Part shown: in pieces, positions 15,539 to 26,287 of the stretch
How the letters are laid out: each line of letters begins with the position of its first letter
Position numbering within the stretch: position 1 is the stretch's first letter
Assembly (NCBI GenBank): GCA_030695165.1
Contig: JAUYTH010000166.1
Location: 1-39,594, forward strand
Length of the DNA: 39,594 nt
From: Bacteroidales bacterium
GTDB lineage: Bacteria; Bacteroidota; Bacteroidia; Bacteroidales; UBA932
Reading direction: 5' to 3'
The notes under the pieces: model-generated
Database searches by the model: none
Told to the model about the DNA's origin: nothing
Seen by the model: the letters and a program-made list of their open reading frames with translations, nothing else
Position numbers and translations under genes: made by a program

Positions 15539-16108
15539 ATGGAAAAAATATTTCCCCGGCGGCTTGTAATTCCTACCATTGTCCTTTGTGGAGCTGTGGT
15601 AGGAATTTTTTTATATCTGCTCTATATCTCCAGGGTGGCATCCTACCTCAGTGACGACCCGTCGGCCTGTGTAAATTGTCATATAATGGCCCCATACTAC
15701 CAATCGTGGCAAAAGAGCTCCCACCAGCCCTGGACAACCTGTAATGACTGTCACGTTCCTCAGGACAACATTATCAAAGGGTACTCATTTAAAGCAAAAG
15801 ACGGACTATATCACGCCGCAATCTTCACTCTAAGAATGGAGCCACAGGTTATCCGCCCTCGGGCAGAGAGCTACGGCGCTATTATGGATAATTGCATTCG
15901 ATGTCATACTCAGCTTAACACAGAGTTTGTAAAGACTGGGATGGTTAAATACAGACAAGTTGAAAAGGGAGAGGCAAGAGCCTGTTGGGATTGTCACAGA
16001 GAGGTGCCTCACGGGAGGATATCAAACCTGGCGATGAGCCCCAATGCAATAGTACCCCTCCCGGAATCACCTGTTCCCGACTGGCTTAAAAAAATAATGA
16101 AGAGATAA
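15539..16108 (+). CDS. nrfH: Cytochrome c nitrite reductase small subunit NrfH (tetraheme quinol dehydrogenase)
   Basis: N-terminal TM anchor and four CxxCH motifs: CVNCH, CNDCH, CIRCH, CWDCH. Confidence 0.95.
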   Translation: MEKIFPRRLVIPTIVLCGAVVGIFLYLLYISRVASYLSDDPSACVNCHIMAPYYQSWQKSSHQPWTTCNDCHVPQDNIIKGYSFKAKDGLYHAAIFTLRMEPQVIRPRAESYGAIMDNCIRCHTQLNTEFVKTGMVKYRQVEKGEARACWDCHREVPHGRISNLAMSPNAIVPLPESPVPDWLKKIMKR

Positions 16109-16119
16109 AAGATAACTCT

Positions 16120-17610
16120 ATGAAACTTAAACTATTCTTCGAAAAACACAGGGTTGCTCTAATGTGGACCCTGTTCGCAGGAACAATTGTGGTTGTTTTT
16201 TTGCTCGGCCTTTTGGCCGCCTCTGTAACTGAAAGAAGAGCAGAGATTGCGACTCTTTTTAATAATAAAAGAGTTGAGATAAAAGGTATAGAGTCCAGAA
16301 GTGAGATTTGGGGAGAGAACTATCCCAGAGAGTATGAGACCTGGGAAAAGACTAAGGAGATGGATTTCGAGAGCAAACATAACGGTAATAGCGTGGTTGA
16401 CCTCTTGGAGCAGAGGCCGGATATGGTTGTGCTTTGGGCCGGATATGCCTTCTCCCGGGACTACAGCGCCCCGAGAGGACACTCATATGCTGTTGAGGAC
16501 GTGGTTAAAACTCTGCGAACAGGAGCTCCTGTAACAGAGGATAAAAACCTACAACCCTCAACTTGCTGGGCCTGCAAAAGCCCGGATGTGCCAAGATTGA
16601 TGGCAGAGGTGGGAATTGAGAAGTTTTACTCATCAAAATGGTCTCACTTCGGCAACGAGGTTGTCAACTCTATCGGCTGTGCAGATTGCCATAATCCGGA
16701 GAATATGAATATTGCAATCTCCCGCCCTGCTCTTGCCGAGGCTTTTGAGAGAGTCGGGAAAGATATAGGAGTGAGCACCATTCAGGAGAGACGCTCATTG
16801 GCCTGTGCACAGTGCCACGTGGAGTACCACTTTAAAGGGGATGGCAAATACCTCACATTCCCTTGGGACAAGGGTATGAGCGTAGAGCAGATTGAGAGCT
16901 ATTACGATGAGATTGGATTCACAGACTGGGTTCACACCCTTAGCAAAGCCCCAATGTTAAAGGCTCAGCATCCGGACTATGAGATATTTATGGCTGGACC
17001 TCACGCCCAGAGGGGACTCTCCTGCGCAGACTGCCATATGCCATACAAGTCGGACGGTGCAATCAAATATAGTGACCACCACGTAACGTCGCCTTTGCTA
17101 AACATAGACCGTACCTGCCAGACCTGCCACCGTGACAGTAAAGAGAATCTTATAAAGTATGTTTATGAATATCAGGATAAAATACTAGAAACCAGAGACC
17201 GGGTAGAGAAGGAGCTTGTAAAATCTCATATTGCCGCAAAGTTTGCCTGGGATAACGGAGCCTCTCAAAAACAGATGGAGCCGGTTCTTAAGCTTATAAG
17301 GGCAGCACAATGGCGGTGGGACTTTGCAGTTGCCTCACACGGAGCCGCTTTTCACGCCCCGGTAGAGACTCAGAGAATTCTTGCCCATAGTCTGGACAAG
17401 AGCTATCAGGCACAACTGGAGACAATCAAAGTTCTTGCTTCGTTGGGTGTCAAGGATGAGATTCCTGCTCCCGATATCTCTACAAAGGAGAGAGCTCAGC
17501 AATACATTGGGCTCGATATGTCTAAACTTCGCAGCGAGAAAGATGAATTTATGACAACAACAGTACCGCAATGGCTGGTGAAGGCAAGAGAAAACGGACG
17601 ACTGCTATAG
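16120..17610 (+). CDS. nrfA: Ammonia-forming cytochrome c nitrite reductase NrfA
   Basis: Catalytic CWACK plus CADCH, CAQCH, CADCH, CQTCH (five hemes). Confidence 0.96.
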   Translation: MKLKLFFEKHRVALMWTLFAGTIVVVFLLGLLAASVTERRAEIATLFNNKRVEIKGIESRSEIWGENYPREYETWEKTKEMDFESKHNGNSVVDLLEQRPDMVVLWAGYAFSRDYSAPRGHSYAVEDVVKTLRTGAPVTEDKNLQPSTCWACKSPDVPRLMAEVGIEKFYSSKWSHFGNEVVNSIGCADCHNPENMNIAISRPALAEAFERVGKDIGVSTIQERRSLACAQCHVEYHFKGDGKYLTFPWDKGMSVEQIESYYDEIGFTDWVHTLSKAPMLKAQHPDYEIFMAGPHAQRGLSCADCHMPYKSDGAIKYSDHHVTSPLLNIDRTCQTCHRDSKENLIKYVYEYQDKILETRDRVEKELVKSHIAAKFAWDNGASQKQMEPVLKLIRAAQWRWDFAVASHGAAFHAPVETQRILAHSLDKSYQAQLETIKVLASLGVKDEIPAPDISTKERAQQYIGLDMSKLRSEKDEFMTTTVPQWLVKARENGRLL

Positions 17611-18704
17611 AGGAGGCTGTTGTAGCAACAGCCGTTGTTACTGCCGGTTTTGCCCTCCAATTCACATTAGGCTCTTTTGACAAGGCCTTTCTGGCATTTC
17701 CCGTTAATATAATCGCTCTGGCTGCTCTGGCTACTCTCCTCTTTATTAAGCAGGGCAGGCTGCTAACCCGGCTCTCATCCGGCTCTCTGTCGGTTATACT
17801 CTTGACACTTGTATTATTTAGCACTCTTTATATGGGTCTTGTTCCGGGTAATAAGACAAAGATCTCCTGGCCCTTTGTTCTAATCTATCTGATGACCCTC
17901 ATAAATATAACTGCTGTAATCTCGGTACATCTTAAGAGCTTCTCAAAAAGGAGTATCCCATTTCTCTTAAATCATTTGGGAGTTTTAATACTTCTTTATG
18001 CTGCAGGTTTAGGATCTGCAGATAAGTCAAGGTATTTTATGAGAGTGAATGAGGGGGAGGTTGAGTGGAGAGCAGAACAATCGGGATTTGGTGCCCGGGA
18101 GGGTCTTACAGAGCTGCCTATTGCTATTAGTTTAAAAAATTTTGAAATCGAAGAGTACCCTCCCAAGCTGGCAATAATCGAGAGAGCAACGGGTGAGGCG
18201 CTTCCTAAAGGTAGACCTCTGCTTTTTCCTGCAGAGTTGAACAATTTTGCTCAAATAGAGGGGTGGAGTATCAAGGTAGACACTTTAAAATATCTGCCCC
18301 GCTTCGCCCCCTCGGCATATGTATTGGTAACATCTCAAGGTACCAACGACACTCTGCGAGGATGGGTTAGCTGCGGGAACCATTTTCAGCGGCATAAAAC
18401 ACTGGATATTAATGAAAATCTTTGCGTTGCTATGACTTTTCCCGAGCCTAAAGCATATAGTTCAGATGTTATCGTATATACACGCAGCGGTAAAGAGAGG
18501 GGTGGAATTATTATGGTAAACTCCCCGCTCACAGTAGGGAGCTGGAAAATCTACCAGCACTCATACGATACGCAAAAGGGAAGAGATTCTCAGTGGTCCC
18601 GTTTTGAATTGGTCTATGATCCTTGGTTTATCCCTGCTTTAATCGGGATTATTATGATGATTGCCGGAGCTATTACCCTCTTTTGGAAAGGAGGTGCCAG
18701 ATGA
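17571..18704 (+). CDS. ResB/CcsB-like system II cytochrome c biogenesis protein
   Basis: Hydrophobic N-terminal segments, large soluble domain with SWKIYQHSYDTQKGRDSQWSRFELVYDP and a C-terminal TM; directly followed by ccsA. Confidence 0.82.
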   Translation: MAGEGKRKRTTAIEEAVVATAVVTAGFALQFTLGSFDKAFLAFPVNIIALAALATLLFIKQGRLLTRLSSGSLSVILLTLVLFSTLYMGLVPGNKTKISWPFVLIYLMTLINITAVISVHLKSFSKRSIPFLLNHLGVLILLYAAGLGSADKSRYFMRVNEGEVEWRAEQSGFGAREGLTELPIAISLKNFEIEEYPPKLAIIERATGEALPKGRPLLFPAELNNFAQIEGWSIKVDTLKYLPRFAPSAYVLVTSQGTNDTLRGWVSCGNHFQRHKTLDINENLCVAMTFPEPKAYSSDVIVYTRSGKERGGIIMVNSPLTVGSWKIYQHSYDTQKGRDSQWSRFELVYDPWFIPALIGIIMMIAGAITLFWKGGAR

Positions 18705-19471
18705 GTTGGAGTCACTTCATATATTTCGCCTTTGGCTCCCTGACTCTTTGGAGTGCCGGAGTAGTATCTCTGTATAGGGCAAAGAGTACAACAGCAGGAA
18801 AGATCTTAATTTTGGCAGGTATTCTCCTCTTCTCTGTTTTTATTGCAGGTTTATGGATAGCACAGGGGCACCCGCCTTTACGGACAATTGGAGAGACACG
18901 TCTCTGGTACTCTTTTTTTTTAATAATTGTGGGATTTGCCACATACCTCCACTGGGGATACAAATGGCTAATGGGTTACAGCACTCTGGTCTCTGCAGTT
19001 TTTATTTTTGTTAACCTGCTAAAGCCGGAAATTCACACAACCAATCTAATGCCGGCCCTTAGGAGTGTCTGGTTTGTTCCGCACGTAACGGTATATATTT
19101 TATCGTATGCAATGCTGGGTGCTGCCACAATCGCCTCGTTTGTTGCATTGAAAGAGTTGCGTTCTACCCAGAGGTTGATGCCTCTTATAGATAACCTTGT
19201 TTACATAGGATTTGGATTCCTTATGATGGGAATGCTAATGGGGGCGATCTGGGCTAAAGAGGCGTGGGGAGACTACTGGAGCTGGGACCCCAAAGAGGTT
19301 TGGGCATTCATAACAGCAACAGCATATCTCATCTATATTCACTCCAGATTGAGAGGATATCCGCTCAAATATATTCTTTGGTTGCTTCCGGTAGCATTTA
19401 TCTTGCTTATGATAACCTGGATAGGTGTAAATTATCTGCCTGCTGCACAGGGGAGTATACACGTATATTAA
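18701..19471 (+). CDS. ccsA: CcsA/CcmC-family cytochrome c biogenesis protein
   Basis: Multi-TM with WWD-type motif WAKEAWGDYWSWDPKEVWAFITA. Start at 18701 (ATGA overlap) preferred over the ORF-track start at 18623. Confidence 0.9.
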   Translation: MSWSHFIYFAFGSLTLWSAGVVSLYRAKSTTAGKILILAGILLFSVFIAGLWIAQGHPPLRTIGETRLWYSFFLIIVGFATYLHWGYKWLMGYSTLVSAVFIFVNLLKPEIHTTNLMPALRSVWFVPHVTVYILSYAMLGAATIASFVALKELRSTQRLMPLIDNLVYIGFGFLMMGMLMGAIWAKEAWGDYWSWDPKEVWAFITATAYLIYIHSRLRGYPLKYILWLLPVAFILLMITWIGVNYLPAAQGSIHVY

Positions 19472-19513
19472 AAATTTTTTAAAATATTTGCAGCAATCAG
19501 AAAAAATTTGATT

Positions 19514-19521
19514 TACATTTG
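19514..19521 (+). promoter_or_regulatory. Candidate -7 element TACATTTG for the his operon leader
   Basis: Exact TAnnTTTG match 21 nt before the leader peptide ATG at 19543. Confidence 0.5.
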
Positions 19522-19542
19522 CGACTCAACAAAAGAGAGAAA

Positions 19543-19632
19543 ATGAATCTATATTCAAATATCCATTCGATCCATCATCATCACCTGCAGTTACTCGGTA
19601 GGCTGGATCGGCTATTTGTATATATGAGATAA
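19543..19632 (+). CDS. hisL: Histidine operon leader peptide MNLYSNIHSIHHHHLQLLGRLDRLFVYMR
   Basis: 29-codon ORF with 5 His codons, 4 consecutive (CAT CAT CAT CAC), 74 nt upstream of hisG and just before a strong terminator. Confidence 0.88.
   Translation: MNLYSNIHSIHHHHLQLLGRLDRLFVYMR
19568..19610 (+). promoter_or_regulatory. Attenuator hairpin 1:2 covering the His codons
   Basis: CGATCCA (19568-19574) is the exact reverse complement of TGGATCG (19604-19610); an inner helix CCTGC (19584-19588)/GTAGG (19598-19602) stacks inside. Confidence 0.7.
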
Positions 19633-19667
19633 TTATTCAGATATATTTAGTTTAGAAGGGCTTACCG
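19596..19667 (+). promoter_or_regulatory. Antiterminator 2:3
   Basis: CGGTAGGCT (19596-19604) pairs over 9 bp (2 G-U) with GGCTTACCG (19659-19667), excluding both hairpin 1:2 and the terminator. Confidence 0.7.
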
Positions 19668-19686
19668 CAAGGTAGGCCCTTTTTTT
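19657..19686 (+). terminator. Rho-independent attenuator terminator
   Basis: AGGGCTTACC-GCAA-GGTAGGCCCT, a 10-bp stem (one G-U) with GNRA tetraloop followed by TTTTTTATTTTTT. Confidence 0.9.
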
Positions 19687-19706
19687 ATTTTTTAATTTAT
19701 TGATTT

Positions 19707-20558
19707 ATGATTAGGATTGCTATTCAGGCAAAAGGCCGATTAAGTGAAGAGAGTATTAACCTTTTGAACGAGTCCGGGCTCACAATTGAGGAGGGCAAAA
19801 GAAAGCTGCTTGCCAAGTGTGGAGACTTCCCCCTTGAGGTTCTCTTTCTCAGGGATGACGATATCCCGGGAGCAGTTGCAATGGGGGTTGCAGATATTGG
19901 AATTGTGGGAATGAATGAGGTTGAGGAGAAAAAGATGGATAACACTGTCATTCATAAGCTGGGCTTTAGCAAGTGTCGCATCTCACTCGCTATTCCAAAA
20001 GCCGCCGAATACACGGGACTTGAATATTTTAACGGCAAAAGGGTCGCAACATCCTACCCCTCAATTCTTGAAAAATTCTTCAAAGAGAACTCTATAGATG
20101 CGCAGATTCATAAAATCACAGGATCTGTAGAGGTTGCACCCTCAGTAGGAATGGCAGATGCAATTTTTGACATTGTAAGTTCGGGAGGAACCCTCATAAC
20201 CAACGGGCTTAAGGAGGTTGAGAGAGTCTTTCTCTCCGAAGCGGTTTTAATTGCAAATCCAAAGCTGGAGAGGGAGAAGATGGAGGTTGTAACCCAGCTG
20301 GTCTCAAGATTTGAATCTGTTGAGAGAAGCAGAGGAATGAAGTATCTTTTGATGAACCTCCCGGAAGATAAGCTGGATGAGGCAACCGGGATATTGCCCG
20401 GAATGAGGAGCCCCACCATTCTTCCTCTGGCACAAAAAGGGTGGTGCTCAATACACGTAGTGGTAGAGGAGAGGGAGCTTTGGCCAAAGATGGAGCAGCT
20501 CAAAGCAATTGGTGCAGAGGGCATCCTGGTACTCTCGCTGGAGAAGATTTTACCATAG
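19707..20558 (+). CDS. hisG: ATP phosphoribosyltransferase, long form
   Basis: IRIAIQAKGRLSEESINLL, ADIGIVGMNEVEE, C-terminal regulatory region SPTILPLAQKGWCSIHVVVEERELWPKMEQLKAIGAEGILVLSLEKIL. Confidence 0.96.
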   Translation: MIRIAIQAKGRLSEESINLLNESGLTIEEGKRKLLAKCGDFPLEVLFLRDDDIPGAVAMGVADIGIVGMNEVEEKKMDNTVIHKLGFSKCRISLAIPKAAEYTGLEYFNGKRVATSYPSILEKFFKENSIDAQIHKITGSVEVAPSVGMADAIFDIVSSGGTLITNGLKEVERVFLSEAVLIANPKLEREKMEVVTQLVSRFESVERSRGMKYLLMNLPEDKLDEATGILPGMRSPTILPLAQKGWCSIHVVVEERELWPKMEQLKAIGAEGILVLSLEKILP

Positions 20559-20588: not shown

Positions 20589-21878
20589 ATGAAGATTATA
20601 GAAGAGCCCCAAAGAGGTCAATGGTCTCAACTTGCAGGCAGATCTACCGAGCTTACGGAATCAATTGAGAAGAGAGTATCCCAAATCTTATCGGATGTGC
20701 GCACTAATGGAGATGCCGCGCTTTATGACCTTACTCAAAAAATAGATGGAGTCTTTCTTAAGTCACTCTATCTGGACAGAGAGTATATTGACAACAGTAA
20801 AAACCGTATAGAGCAAGAACTTAAAAACGCAATTGATATAGCGGCAGAGAATATCGAAAGATTTCACCGTGCGCAGGTTAGTGCAGATATTGAAATTGTG
20901 ACCACCCCCGGAGTGAGATGTATTCAGAGATCTCTGCCAATAGAGAGGGTGGGTCTATATATCCCGGGTGGGAGTGCACCACTCTTCTCCACAGTGCTAA
21001 TGTTGGGAATACCGGCTAAAATAGCAGGTTGCAAGGAGATAGTACTCTTTACCCCACCATCATATGACGGAAAGATACCTCCCGTCTTGGCCTACACTGC
21101 ATCCCGGATAGGTATAGAGACAATAGTTACCGTAGGGGGTGCTCAGGCAGTTGCTGCAATGGCTTACGGGACTGAGCGCATAAAGAGGGTAGATAAAATC
21201 TTTGGACCCGGAAATCAATATGTAACAATAGCCAAGCAGATGGTATCAAAAACAGTGGCGATAGATATGGTTGCCGGCCCGTCGGAGCTGATGGTTATTG
21301 CAGACAGCAGCTGTGATGCAGATTTTATTGCGGCAGATCTGCTATCTCAGGCAGAGCACGGATTGGACTCTCAGGTTATACTTTTGGCTCCGGAAAAATC
21401 TGTTGCAGACAGGGTTTTACAATCTATACAGGAGCAGAGGGTATTTCTTGATCGTAAACGAGAGATAGAGGGCTCGCTAATGAATAGCAGAATCATAATC
21501 TTTAAAGAGACGATAGATTCGATAGAGTTTGCAAACCTATATGCGCCGGAGCACCTAATAATTGCAACACAGAGGCCGTGGGAAATTGCAGATAAAATCA
21601 GAGCCGCCGGGAGTATATTCATAGGAGAGTACTCTCCCGAAAGTGCGGGAGATTACGCCAGCGGAACCAACCACACTCTTCCTACAGGTGGGTGGGCAAG
21701 ATCTTCTGGAGGGCTTTCGCTAGAGAGCTTTACACACAAAATAACCTACCAGGAGCTCACTCCACAGGGGCTGCTCAACCTTGGCCCCCACATTGCAACT
21801 ATGGCGCAAAACGAGCAGCTCCAGGGACATAGAAATGCTGTAGAAATAAGATTAAAGAGACTAAATTCCGGAAATTAA
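20589..21878 (+). CDS. hisD: Histidinol dehydrogenase
   Basis: RVGLYIPGGSAPLFSTVLMLGIPA, GPGNQYVTIAKQMV, DMVAGPSELMVIAD, DLLSQAEHG, GTNHTLPTGGWARSSGGLS. Confidence 0.97.
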   Translation: MKIIEEPQRGQWSQLAGRSTELTESIEKRVSQILSDVRTNGDAALYDLTQKIDGVFLKSLYLDREYIDNSKNRIEQELKNAIDIAAENIERFHRAQVSADIEIVTTPGVRCIQRSLPIERVGLYIPGGSAPLFSTVLMLGIPAKIAGCKEIVLFTPPSYDGKIPPVLAYTASRIGIETIVTVGGAQAVAAMAYGTERIKRVDKIFGPGNQYVTIAKQMVSKTVAIDMVAGPSELMVIADSSCDADFIAADLLSQAEHGLDSQVILLAPEKSVADRVLQSIQEQRVFLDRKREIEGSLMNSRIIIFKETIDSIEFANLYAPEHLIIATQRPWEIADKIRAAGSIFIGEYSPESAGDYASGTNHTLPTGGWARSSGGLSLESFTHKITYQELTPQGLLNLGPHIATMAQNEQLQGHRNAVEIRLKRLNSGN

Positions 21879-21881
21879 AAT

Positions 21882-23594
21882 ATGAAAGAGACAACTAAGA
21901 TCAAAAATAGTAAGGAGATAAAAGAGATAAACTGGGTGGAAAACATTATCCGCCCAAATATAAGAGAGCTCAAACCCTACTCTACCGCCAGAGATGAATC
22001 AGATCTTAAATGCGCTGTATATCTCGATGCAAATGAGAGCCCATACAATTCCGGTTATAACAGATATCCGGATCCGCACAGCAAGGAGCTAAAGAGAGCT
22101 GCTGCTGTATCTATCTGCAAACAGCTGCAGATATTTATTGATGGTGGTGTAACCCCCGAGCCCTTTATGCCAAAACCGGAGAATATCTTTGCAGGAAACG
22201 GATCGGATGAGGCAATAGATCTGTTGATACGAATCTTTTGCAGACCCGGAAGAGATAATATCATTACACTCTCTCCTACCTACGGAATGTACAAAGTTTG
22301 TGCATCTATAAATGATATAGCCTACAGAGAGCACTCTCTTGAGGCCGACTTCTCTTTTGACAGAGAGAGATTATTAAAGTTAAGTGACAAAAAGAGCAAG
22401 ATAATATTTTTGTGTTCACCCAATAACCCAACCGGGAATCTGCTCAAAAAAGAGGATATTATCTGGGTGATAGAGAGGTTCCGTGGAGTAGTTGTGGTAG
22501 ATGAGGCCTATATAGATTTTGCATCTGATGCCGGGTTTGTTCCAATGATTGACCAATATCCCAATCTTGTGGTCTTACGAACAATGTCCAAAGCGAAAGG
22601 GATGGCTGCTATTAGAGTCGGGTTTGCTCTATCCTCACCAAAAATCATCGCATTTATGGAGAGGGTTAAATACCCATATAATATAAGTCGTGTAAATCAA
22701 GAGCTTGCTATAAAGGCTCTTAAAGAGAGTGACCCCACCCTTGTGGAGACTATTATAGAAGAGAGGGAGAAGCTTGCAGAGTCTTTGAAGAGATCTGCAG
22801 GGGTTGAGAGGGTATATCCAAGTAACTCCAACTTCTTGCTGGTAAAATTCACCGATGCAAAAAAGATTTATAACAAATTGTTAAACGCCGGTATTGTAAC
22901 AAGAGATAGAAGCTATGTGGCCGGTTGCTCACAAACTCTCCGGATCACTGTTGGGAAACCACTGGAAAACAGAGCTCTTCTCTCTGTGATTAATGGAGAC
23001 TCCTCAAAAAAGTTTAGCGACTGTATAGAGCTCTCAAGAGTAACAAAGGAGACAAAGATAGAAGTCAGGATATACCCGGACGGAGGAAGGGATTCGGGAA
23101 TCCGTACAGGGTTAGGGTTTTTTGACCATATGCTTGAGCAGATATCGGTTCACTCAGGCATCTCTATGGATATTGATGCCTGCGGAGATCTAAAAGTAGA
23201 CCCGCACCACACCGTTGAGGATGTTGCAATAGTTTTGGGAGAGGCATTTAAGAGGATGATATCTGCAAAAAAGGGGTACAACAGATATGGATTTGTATTA
23301 CCTATGGATGAGTCCAGGGCAGAGGTACTTCTGGATTTGGGAGGAAGGGCCTCTTTTATATGGGATGTATCCTTTAAGGGAGAGAGGGTTGGTGAGTTTC
23401 CGTGTGAGATGTTCAGACACTTCTTCTCTACCCTCTCTTCCTCGGCTCTCTTTACACTTCATATATCTGCTCAGGGAGATAACGACCACCATAAGGGAGA
23501 GGCAATTTTTAAAGCATTTGCAAGGGCGCTAAGAGTAGCACTCTCAAATGATGTTAATCTCTATCAAACACCAAGCAGTAAGGGGGTAATATAG
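21882..23594 (+). CDS. hisC-hisB: HisC::HisB fusion: histidinol-phosphate aminotransferase (about aa 1-370) joined to imidazoleglycerol-phosphate dehydratase (about aa 380-570)
   Basis: HisC part: YLDANESPYNSG, FLCSPNNPTGNLL, VVVDEAYIDF, LRTMSKAKGMAAIRVGFAL. HisB-d part: RDSGIRTGLGFFDHMLEQISVHSG, DPHHTVEDVAIVLGEAF, DNDHHKGEAIFKAFARALR. Single open frame. Confidence 0.93.
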   Translation: MKETTKIKNSKEIKEINWVENIIRPNIRELKPYSTARDESDLKCAVYLDANESPYNSGYNRYPDPHSKELKRAAAVSICKQLQIFIDGGVTPEPFMPKPENIFAGNGSDEAIDLLIRIFCRPGRDNIITLSPTYGMYKVCASINDIAYREHSLEADFSFDRERLLKLSDKKSKIIFLCSPNNPTGNLLKKEDIIWVIERFRGVVVVDEAYIDFASDAGFVPMIDQYPNLVVLRTMSKAKGMAAIRVGFALSSPKIIAFMERVKYPYNISRVNQELAIKALKESDPTLVETIIEEREKLAESLKRSAGVERVYPSNSNFLLVKFTDAKKIYNKLLNAGIVTRDRSYVAGCSQTLRITVGKPLENRALLSVINGDSSKKFSDCIELSRVTKETKIEVRIYPDGGRDSGIRTGLGFFDHMLEQISVHSGISMDIDACGDLKVDPHHTVEDVAIVLGEAFKRMISAKKGYNRYGFVLPMDESRAEVLLDLGGRASFIWDVSFKGERVGEFPCEMFRHFFSTLSSSALFTLHISAQGDNDHHKGEAIFKAFARALRVALSNDVNLYQTPSSKGVI

Positions 23595-23599
23595 ATATT

Positions 23600-24205
23600 A
23601 TGGTTGCAATAGTAGAGTATGGAGCGGGAAATATCCGCTCATTGAGTAATGCAATAGAGAGGTTAGGAGAAGATTATGTTGTAACATCAGACCCCTCACT
23701 TATATCCACTGCATCACATATAATTCTTCCGGGAGTTGGGCAGGCGGCATCTGTTATGTGCTCAATAGAGGAGCGCAATTTGACAAATCTTATCCGGTCA
23801 CTAAGCTCTCCGGTATTGGGCATTTGTATAGGGATGCAGGTTTTATGCTCATTTAGCGAAGAGGGTGATACCGGGTTGTTGGATGTTTTTGATAACAGGG
23901 TTGTAAAACTAAGATCGCCGGGTCTCAAGATTCCGCATATGGGGTGGAACCGTATAACTGAGCTCAGCGGTCCACTATTTGAGTCCATACCCGAAGGGGA
24001 GTGGTTCTATTTTGTTCACTCCTACGCTCCGGAAATCAGCCGGGATACAGTTGCCTTTACCGAATATGGGGGCAAATTTTCATCTGCACTCAATAAAAGA
24101 AATTTCTATGGAGTACAATTTCACCCGGAGAAGAGCGGGCAGGCAGGAGAGCGATTTCTAAAGAACTTTTTTGAAATGGATAAAAGAGATGGTTATAGTG
24201 AGTAA
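23600..24205 (+). CDS. hisH: Imidazole glycerol phosphate synthase subunit HisH
   Basis: VEYGAGNIRSLSNAIERLG, LPGVGQAASVM, GICIGMQVLC, FYGVQFHPEKSG. Confidence 0.96.
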   Translation: MVAIVEYGAGNIRSLSNAIERLGEDYVVTSDPSLISTASHIILPGVGQAASVMCSIEERNLTNLIRSLSSPVLGICIGMQVLCSFSEEGDTGLLDVFDNRVVKLRSPGLKIPHMGWNRITELSGPLFESIPEGEWFYFVHSYAPEISRDTVAFTEYGGKFSSALNKRNFYGVQFHPEKSGQAGERFLKNFFEMDKRDGYSE

Positions 24206-24938
24206 AACCAAATTTTCTGTTATTCCTGCAATTGATATAATTGCAGGAGAGTGTGTAAGGCTCTCAATGGGAGACTACAGCAAAAAAATTGTCTATAGTA
24301 CAGACCCTCTTGAGGTGGCTTTGAACTTTCACCGGATGGGTTTTGAGAGACTTCATATGGTAGATCTGGAGGGTGCCAAGGGAGAGAGCCCGGTAAACCT
24401 AAATGTTTTGGAGAGGGTTTCGAAAGGCAGCACAATGGAGATTCAGTTCGGAGGCGGAGTCAAGAGTTTGGAGTCTGCCGCCGAGGTGTTCAGTGCCGGA
24501 GCCTCAAGAGTAATATGTGGGAGCATTGCGGTAGAGAACCCCCCTCTCTTTAAGGAGATGTTAAAAATCTTCGGTAGCAAAAGGTTGATTCTTGGAGTAG
24601 ATATTAGAGATGGTAAAATTGCGATAAAAGGGTGGAGGCAGGAGTGTAATTCAGATCTCTTTGAGACTATATCCAACTATGCAAAAATTGGAGTGAGTCA
24701 ATTGATTTGTACAGATATCACTAAAGACGGTATGTTGTGTGGACCGGCATTTGATATCTACTCCTCCCTAAAAAGAGAGTTTCCCGCGATTGAGCTTATT
24801 GCCAGCGGAGGTGTCTCCTCGCTGCAAGATATTGTTAGACTAAAAGAGTGCGGTGCAGATGGAGTTATAGTTGGGAAAGCACTATATGAAAATAGAGTTG
24901 ATTTAAAGGAGTTATCACTATGGTTGCAAAACGGATAA
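24189..24938 (+). CDS. hisA: ProFAR isomerase HisA
   Basis: VIPAIDIIAGECVRLSMGDYSK, IQFGGGVKS, TDITKDGMLCGP, ELIASGGVSSLQDI, VIVGKALYE; start 24189 overlapping the hisH end. Confidence 0.95.
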   Translation: MVIVSKTKFSVIPAIDIIAGECVRLSMGDYSKKIVYSTDPLEVALNFHRMGFERLHMVDLEGAKGESPVNLNVLERVSKGSTMEIQFGGGVKSLESAAEVFSAGASRVICGSIAVENPPLFKEMLKIFGSKRLILGVDIRDGKIAIKGWRQECNSDLFETISNYAKIGVSQLICTDITKDGMLCGPAFDIYSSLKREFPAIELIASGGVSSLQDIVRLKECGADGVIVGKALYENRVDLKELSLWLQNG

Positions 24939-25675
24939 TACCTTGCCTGGATGTTCACGAGGGCAAGACTGTGAAAGGGGTAAATTTTATAAACCTTAAA
25001 GAGGTGGGAGATCCTGTTCTTATGGGAAGAGGATATGCTCTGCAGGGGGCAGATGAGCTTGTTTATCTGGACATAAGCGCAACTCAGGAGGGTCGCCGGA
25101 CATTTCTCTCACTTGTAAAGAGAGTTGCCAAAGAGATAAATATTCCATTTACGGTAGGTGGTGGCATAACAGAACTCAGCCAGGTGAGTGCACTTCTGGA
25201 TGCGGGAGCAGACAAGATCTCAATCAATAGTGCTGCAATCTCTAACCCTGCACTGGTTGACTCAATTGCCTGTAGGTACGGATCTCAATTTGTAGTTGTT
25301 GCAATTGATGCAAGAGTAGAGGAGGGTATATGGAGAGTTATGAGCAGCGGTGGTCAAAAGAGGAGCAACAGGGAGTTGTTTGAGTGGGCAGATGAGGTTA
25401 TGAGCCGGGGTGCAGGCGAGATTCTCTTCACCTCAATGGATCACGACGGGACAAAAAGCGGGTTTGCATACCAGGCTCTGTCAACTCTGGGTTCCCGGCT
25501 AACCATTCCTGTTATTGCATCGGGTGGAGCAGGTAAGATGGAGCACTTTGCCCAACTCTTTAAAGAGGGAAAAGCAGATGCCGCTCTTGCTGCATCTGTC
25601 TTCCACAACGGAGAGATTGGGATACCTGCATTGAAAAGATTTCTGCTGGAGTCGGGAGTTGTGGTGAGATTATAG
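24920..25675 (+). CDS. hisF: Imidazole glycerol phosphate synthase subunit HisF
   Basis: AKRIIPCLDVHEGKTVKGVNF, DISATQEGR, FTVGGGI, ADKISINSAA, SMDHDGTKSGF, IASGGAGKMEHF. Confidence 0.97.
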   Translation: MVAKRIIPCLDVHEGKTVKGVNFINLKEVGDPVLMGRGYALQGADELVYLDISATQEGRRTFLSLVKRVAKEINIPFTVGGGITELSQVSALLDAGADKISINSAAISNPALVDSIACRYGSQFVVVAIDARVEEGIWRVMSSGGQKRSNRELFEWADEVMSRGAGEILFTSMDHDGTKSGFAYQALSTLGSRLTIPVIASGGAGKMEHFAQLFKEGKADAALAASVFHNGEIGIPALKRFLLESGVVVRL

Positions 25676-25690
25676 TTAAAAAAAGAGATT

Positions 25691-26287
25691 ATGGAAAAAT
25701 TAAGAGATATAGTATTTAAAAACGAAACGGATCTTATTCCTGCAGTAATCCAGGATGATAAAACCCTTAAGGTTCTTATGTTAGGTTATATGAACAGAGA
25801 GTCATATGAGCTAAGTGTAGCCAGCGGACTGGTCACCTTTTTCAGCAGATCCCGCAAGAGACTCTGGATAAAAGGGGAGAGTAGCGGCAACTATCTTAAA
25901 ATTGTGACCATTGAGAAAGATTGTGACCAGGATACACTTTTAGTGAGGGTAAATCCTGCAGGCCCGGTTTGCCATACCGGAAGCGTAAGCTGTTTCGGCG
26001 GCAGAGATAGTGAGGGTTTTACAGGGAGGCTTACTCAAATAATAGGAGAGAGGCACCTCAATATGCCACCCGACTCATACACAACCTCGCTCTTTAACTC
26101 CGGAGCAGATAGAATCTGCAAAAAAGTAGCAGAGGAGGCTGCTGAAACCATAATAGAGGCTATTAAAGGGGATAAAAAAAGATTGGTATATGAGAGTGCA
26201 GATCTCATATACCATCTTATTGTTCTGCTCGAGTTTTACGGGCTCTCTCTATCCGATATCGAGGAGGAGCTTTACTCAAGAAACTAA
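25691..26287 (+). CDS. hisIE: Bifunctional phosphoribosyl-AMP cyclohydrolase/phosphoribosyl-ATP pyrophosphatase HisIE
   Basis: LIPAVIQDDKTLKVLMLGYMN, FFSRSRKRLWIKGESSGN, DCDQDTLLVRV; C-terminal KKVAEEAAETIIEAI...ESADLIYHLIVLL. Confidence 0.96.
   Translation: MEKLRDIVFKNETDLIPAVIQDDKTLKVLMLGYMNRESYELSVASGLVTFFSRSRKRLWIKGESSGNYLKIVTIEKDCDQDTLLVRVNPAGPVCHTGSVSCFGGRDSEGFTGRLTQIIGERHLNMPPDSYTTSLFNSGADRICKKVAEEAAETIIEAIKGDKKRLVYESADLIYHLIVLLEFYGLSLSDIEEELYSRN

Follow-up and report, generated by a model that had tools for sequence, protein, structure and literature searches.

We conclude that the his operon of this metagenome-assembled genome (MAG) from an uncultured Bacteroidales bacterium is most probably governed by a ribosome-mediated transcription attenuator, a cis-acting leader predicted to sense charged His-tRNA; on comparative sequence evidence, this is the best explanation of the locus, and we put its probability at about 0.93. 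The element lies within the window, the whole stretch of 39,594 nt that was analyzed (table 1). In the proposed mechanism, a Bacteroidota-type promoter about 15 nt ahead of a 29-codon ORF would give rise to a leader transcript. When His-tRNA is short, the ribosome would stall at four His codons and cover strand 1, leaving strand 2 free; strand 2 would then pair with strand 3 to form a long antiterminator hairpin, letting RNA polymerase continue into hisG. With histidine plentiful, the ribosome would pass strand 2 and end at a stop codon within the antiterminator apex, where the antiterminator would fail; strand 2 would re-pair with strand 1 where possible, the 3:4 terminator would form, and transcription would end ahead of hisG. 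An earlier note on this DNA had proposed histidine attenuation, a reading now supported by leader conservation, by triple covariation of strands 2, 3, and 4, and by order-wide swap tests.

Table 1. Features of the Proposed his Attenuator and Its Operon (Window Positions)
Feature	Position	Strand	Basis
Candidate -33 element TTTG, tentative	19487..19490	+	Sequence; several relatives have TTTG/TTGG similarly placed
Candidate -7 element TACATTTG (consensus TAnnTTTG)	19514..19521	+	Sequence
Leader peptide ORF, the proposed sensor	19543..19632	+	Sequence; conserved in 22/22 genus loci
Strand 1: outer CGATCCA 19568-19574, inner CCTGC 19584-19588; overlaps His run	19568..19588	+	MFE fold
Four-His-codon run CAT CAT CAT CAC; predicted stall site when His-tRNA is short	19573..19584	+
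Strand 2: CGGTAGGCT 19596-19604 (antiterminator arm) and TGGATCG 19604-19610 (partner of outer strand 1)	19596..19610	+
Inner stem and loop of putative extended antiterminator; overlaps C-terminal codons of leader; stop 19630-19632 apical	19610..19655	+	Suggestive only
Intrinsic terminator (3:4): 13-bp stem, 4-nt loop, T-tract	19654..19686	+	Terminator scan, folding, covariation
Strand 3: partner of strand 2 (antiterminator) or strand 4 (terminator)	19657..19667	+	Covariation
hisG, ATP phosphoribosyltransferase, long form with C-terminal regulatory domain	19707..20558	+	Pfam PF01634, PF08029
Remaining his operon: hisD, hisC-hisB fusion, hisH, hisA, hisF, hisIE	20589..26287	+	ORFs

Anatomy of the Leader

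The leader ORF runs from an ATG at 19543 to a TAA at 19630-19632, and its translation, MNLYSNIHSIHHHHLQLLGRLDRLFVYMR, contains one His codon at 19564-19566 besides the run CATCATCATCAC at 19573-19584. It is thus a short leader ORF rich in codons of the pathway (HHHH and one further His), as amino acid attenuators have, and an intrinsic terminator stands between it and the first biosynthetic gene. The earlier note's ORF with four consecutive His codons, at 19543-19632, agrees exactly in coordinates and sequence, and every sequence named there was located precisely where it had been placed. The leader is conserved within the genus: each member has a His run, and the peptides mostly read M....SNIHS(I/L/V)HHHH, with their end at a constant 60 nt past the first His of the run; in a codon-position substitution test, third positions are only slightly more variable.

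A promoter may be recognized ahead of the leader. Promoters of Bacteroidota have an established -33 consensus, and the tentative TTTG candidate stands 23 nt from the -7 box, a slightly long spacing. A TAnnTTTG-like box just upstream of the leader is kept in nearly all 22 genus members; TAnnTTTG is given as the -7 consensus in PMC9723704. From this candidate element we infer a transcript start near 19527.

The minimum free energy (MFE) fold of 19527-19690 consists of exactly 1:2 (outer and inner) and 3:4, at -41.6 kcal/mol (z = -3.5; equally good shuffles 0/200). Helix energies in the window are -13.5 kcal/mol for 1:2, -20.6 kcal/mol for 2:3 (in total, with nine pairs and an inner stem), and -20.7 kcal/mol for 3:4. 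In the antiterminator, CGGTAGGCT at 19596-19604 has its partner in GGCTTACCG at 19659-19667; the terminator scan places a hairpin of 13 pairs at 19654-19683, with arms at 19657-19666 and 19671-19680.

Covariation within the Genus

Pairing was scored in a set (A2) of 19 distinct sequences of the genus, divided into anchored blocks. With a register that is partly imposed, because the blocks were anchored on sequence motifs that we chose, 2:3 pairing is possible in 94.2% of cells, 10 of them doubly changed, and 3:4 pairing in 94.3%, with 19 doubly changed cells; in either case, 0/500 shuffles reach that level. Five pairs of the 3:4 terminator helix are doubly changed. Column 41, in strand 3, is A in 12 sequences and G in 7, and it forms UA (12) or CG (7) with strand 2 and AU (12) or GC (7) with strand 4, a pattern consistent in 19/19. 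On the HisG tree this column changed three times by parsimony, at least two of the changes being forced by well-supported branches. A single base that keeps two alternative partners, as read from these alignments, is expected of a switch but not of a simple terminator. Triple covariation, together with the swap test described below, shows for the predicted structures that 2:3 and 3:4 are mutually exclusive, the antiterminator occupying the 5′ arm of the terminator.

Covariation had been proposed as a check in the earlier note, whose 2:3 and 3:4 helices are in place and both backed by it. The 1:2 helix fared less evenly. Its inner part (CCTGC/GTAGG) is a potential that relatives keep, with pairing possible in 95.8% of genus cells against at most 59% in slid registers; the outer part (CGATCCA/TGGATCG) is found only in the nearest relatives (L001, L008, and L010), and no compensatory (double) changes occur in 1:2 among the genus sequences. 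A 1:2 hairpin may nonetheless form in most relatives.

The Late Stop Codon

In 22/22 genus loci the stop codon lies about 60 nt after the first His and beyond strand 2, and the leader ORF spans strand 2; elsewhere in the family some 30 nt separate the first His from the stop, which is mostly inside strand 2. Judging from these loci, the late stop codon is a feature of the genus. Nearly all genus members share the topology of the extended antiterminator with different bases, the inner stem reading, for example, GGCUA/UAGUU, UGCUG/UAGCA, AUGC/GCAU, or UUCUGU/AUAGAA. The inner stem exceeds shuffles in stability by a modest margin only (mean z -1.0), and RNAalifold on a MAFFT alignment of the antiterminator recovers 2:3 only, the inner stem probably being missed due to misalignment.

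Since the stop codon sits inside the antiterminator loop, a terminating ribosome would disrupt the antiterminator. With a ribosome modelled at the stop codon of the window, 2:3 pairing falls from 0.81 to 0.02. A ribosome in that position removes the inner stem. In L001, L008, and L010 the result is a shift to 1:2, with 2:3 dropping from about 0.82 to 0.02, and 1:2 likewise dominates in L009, L014, and L020; in others, the prediction retains 2:3 as long as the RNA may pair around the ribosome, and loses it only when such pairing is sterically forbidden. The earlier note had raised the late stop as a caveat. The stop does lie beyond strand 2, and for the window the modelling suggests a plausible answer, namely that the terminating ribosome breaks the extended antiterminator.

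Within the attenuator explanation, control may act mainly through ribosome masking of the antiterminator, with the 1:2 protector dispensable in most of the genus. The lack of covariation in 1:2 fits such a scheme, as does the leader ORF, which in each of the 22 genus members crosses strand 2 before reaching its stop; yet inner 1:2 potential is retained far above slid registers, and 1:2 dominates the free or the stop-codon state in roughly half of the members. We see in this a real possibility, a little short of even odds.

Distribution and Chance Occurrence

Loci were searched for a His-run ORF 30-130 nt ahead of a terminator, upstream of hisG. The combination is present in 22/22 same-genus loci, where the earlier note had made conservation in close relatives an advance test of its reading, and in 16/25 loci of other genera of the family, 25/29 of an order sample, 25 of 62 named Bacteroidales (the 37 that fail include Muribaculaceae), 23/33 from other orders of the class, and 5/19 from other classes. 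Dinucleotide shuffles yield it in 0% of cases, and runs of other residues are occasional at most, the intergenic background control consisting of shuffles and the host genome only. In the 39.6 kb window, the leader is the sole His-run ORF 30-130 nt ahead of a terminator; of the 13 distinct sites where the 2.55 Mb assembly has four consecutive CAY codons, the leader alone is followed by a terminator no more than 200 nt away. As predicted from these loci, the His-codon attenuator is a widespread kind in the phylum and is not confined to the window.

Beyond the genus, the terminator arms differ (GGCTTACC, GGTTTGCAG, ACCCGTCTGA, CCCCGGCGC, and others). In the swap test, which covered 54 order, class, and phylum loci, strand 2 regions paired better with their own strand 3 (-12.5 kcal/mol) than with foreign ones (-9.2 kcal/mol; p = 2e-7). 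The distance from the first His codon to the start of strand 2 is nearly constant in the genus, at 22 nt, and has a median of 23-26 nt elsewhere, which places strand 2 just beyond the leading edge of a ribosome on the first His codon. When a ribosome stalled at the first His is simulated, 2:3 pairing rises at 111 of the 116 loci (means of 0.46 free, 0.71 stalled, and 0.48 in a control with shuffled middles), a rise that is partly automatic because removing upstream RNA also removes competitors. Several genus members form 2:3 at equilibrium folding even without stalling.

These results bear on a simpler account: the His ORF would be coincidental, and the terminator would do no more than end transcription of the cytochrome c assembly gene upstream. 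That gene does end at 19471, about 180 nt ahead of the terminator, but a promoter-like element lies between it and the leader, the triple covariation includes strand 2, which would be superfluous to a plain terminator, and the His run, its spacing, and its frame are kept in 22/22 genus loci, with ORF and terminator recurring across the class; we regard the account as very improbable. Even less credible is the sensing of histidine by a ligand-binding riboswitch or a T-box instead of a translated leader. A structured leader ahead of an amino acid operon would suit either, and T-boxes sense for his genes in Firmicutes (PMC9413887). At gathering score, however, no Rfam family, the T-box model RF00230 included, matches the window or ten relatives, and the constant part is the His-codon run, the RNA arms varying in sequence among families. 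Poly-His binds metals, but the idea that the peptide is a Ni/Zn sensor controlling ribosome stalling is equally hard to credit, given that the element stands ahead of hisG at every locus examined (all loci having been retrieved through hisG) and that the His runs differ in length and interruption (HHCHH, HHRHH), as codon counting predicts.

For the attenuator itself, the distribution raises the question of origin. His attenuation may be ancestral to the class Bacteroidia or earlier, rather than a gammaproteobacterial invention passed on; the genus would then have extended the ORF through strand 2, and a terminating ribosome breaking the extended antiterminator would have replaced much of the role of 1:2. 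This scenario is tentative, and on balance we lean against it.

Some loci fall outside the main pattern. In L122, from a MAG labeled "Clostridia bacterium," a His-run leader and terminator accompany a hisG of Bacteroidales type (65% identity to that of the window); this is probably a binning error or mislabel. In L199, L201, and L204, of family f176 in another class, the leaders contain many scattered His codons (VNRKNLHTTHLHHGVHHLHQGHHHA) and no terminator was detected on search, hinting at translational or Rho-dependent attenuation. L208-L212, from a small-genome family (f170) in another class, have neither His-run leader nor terminator ahead of hisG; they mark a limit of the element's spread.

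Relation to Known Systems

The closest known parallel, the enterobacterial hisL attenuator (RF00514), likewise has a His-codon leader peptide, a terminator ahead of hisG, an alternative antiterminator, and the same operon. The enterobacterial leader has seven consecutive His codons; the window, in contrast, has four, with a stop beyond strand 2 and a Bacteroidota promoter. The search against RF00514 advised in the earlier note gave no match at gathering score, and the family is absent at E ≤ 10 on 251 bases. Relaxed Rfam thresholds returned sub-gathering matches only, the best one to the terminator part. The element is absent from Rfam, so pipelines that annotate by Rfam miss both it and its tiny ORF.

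Vitreschak et al. 2004 (FEMS Microbiol Lett) reportedly mention in their abstract attenuators in some cases in Bacteroidetes/Chlorobi. The transcriptome of Flavobacterium psychrophilum gave clues to leader-peptide attenuation ahead of amino acid operons, and to a structured, Rfam-less 5′ element at hisG that is conserved in other Flavobacteriaceae genera (PMC9723704). That element belongs to another order, and the passage of the paper that treats it is a brief mention without His codons, strand anatomy, or covariation (PMC9723704). Small ORFs reminiscent of attenuation leader peptides appear in a map of B. thetaiotaomicron (PMC7366714), and enterobacteria are the only group for which attenuation is mentioned in a study on the his genes of the Bacteroidota superphylum (PMC8305728). 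A 2022 survey describes his attenuators in Proteobacteria and Firmicutes, the Firmicutes leaders (B. cereus group, Peptostreptococcaceae, and Erysipelotrichales) having three to five His codons in a row (PMC9413887); these resemble the present element in placing consecutive-His leader peptides ahead of his operons, in a different phylum. Bacteroid-trp RNA (RF01692), which is predicted to be cis-regulatory in Bacteroidetes and takes its name from trp (PMC2864571), differs in operon and sequence, and its model has no match in the window or genome. The earlier note was unsure whether such attenuators had been described in Bacteroidota: they have not gone wholly unnoticed (PMC9723704), yet there is no Rfam family, and no description of a Bacteroidales his attenuator was found in the searchable literature. 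The kind is known and its presence in the phylum hinted at; its anatomy and breadth appear undescribed in that literature.

Across Bacteroidia, and in some further classes of the phylum, hisG would be preceded by His-codon attenuators whose RNA arms vary freely. Bacteroidota mostly lack Shine-Dalgarno sequences. If the attenuators work, transcription-translation coupling in Bacteroidota must be tight enough for attenuation, and the leader offers a natural reporter for testing it.

Operon and Neighborhood

hisG, whose product shares 99% identity with the HisG of HGW-Bacteroidetes-8, is best explained as the first gene of the operon under the predicted regulation. Pfam backs the identities of hisC-hisB and hisIE; four further genes we take, from their sequences, to be hisD, hisH, hisA, and hisF. 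The product of 21882-23594 is one 570-aa protein fusing hisC and hisB (aminotransferase and IGPD). Pfam found no histidinol-phosphatase domain in this fusion; that function therefore lies elsewhere or is absent from the assembly. Three genomes of the same genus (G017, G018, and G019; 90-98% complete) lack a hisG match and are possible histidine auxotrophs. Directly upstream of the his leader, 15539-19471 holds what are presumably nrfH-nrfA-like cytochrome c nitrite reductase genes, named from sequence, followed by cytochrome c assembly genes.
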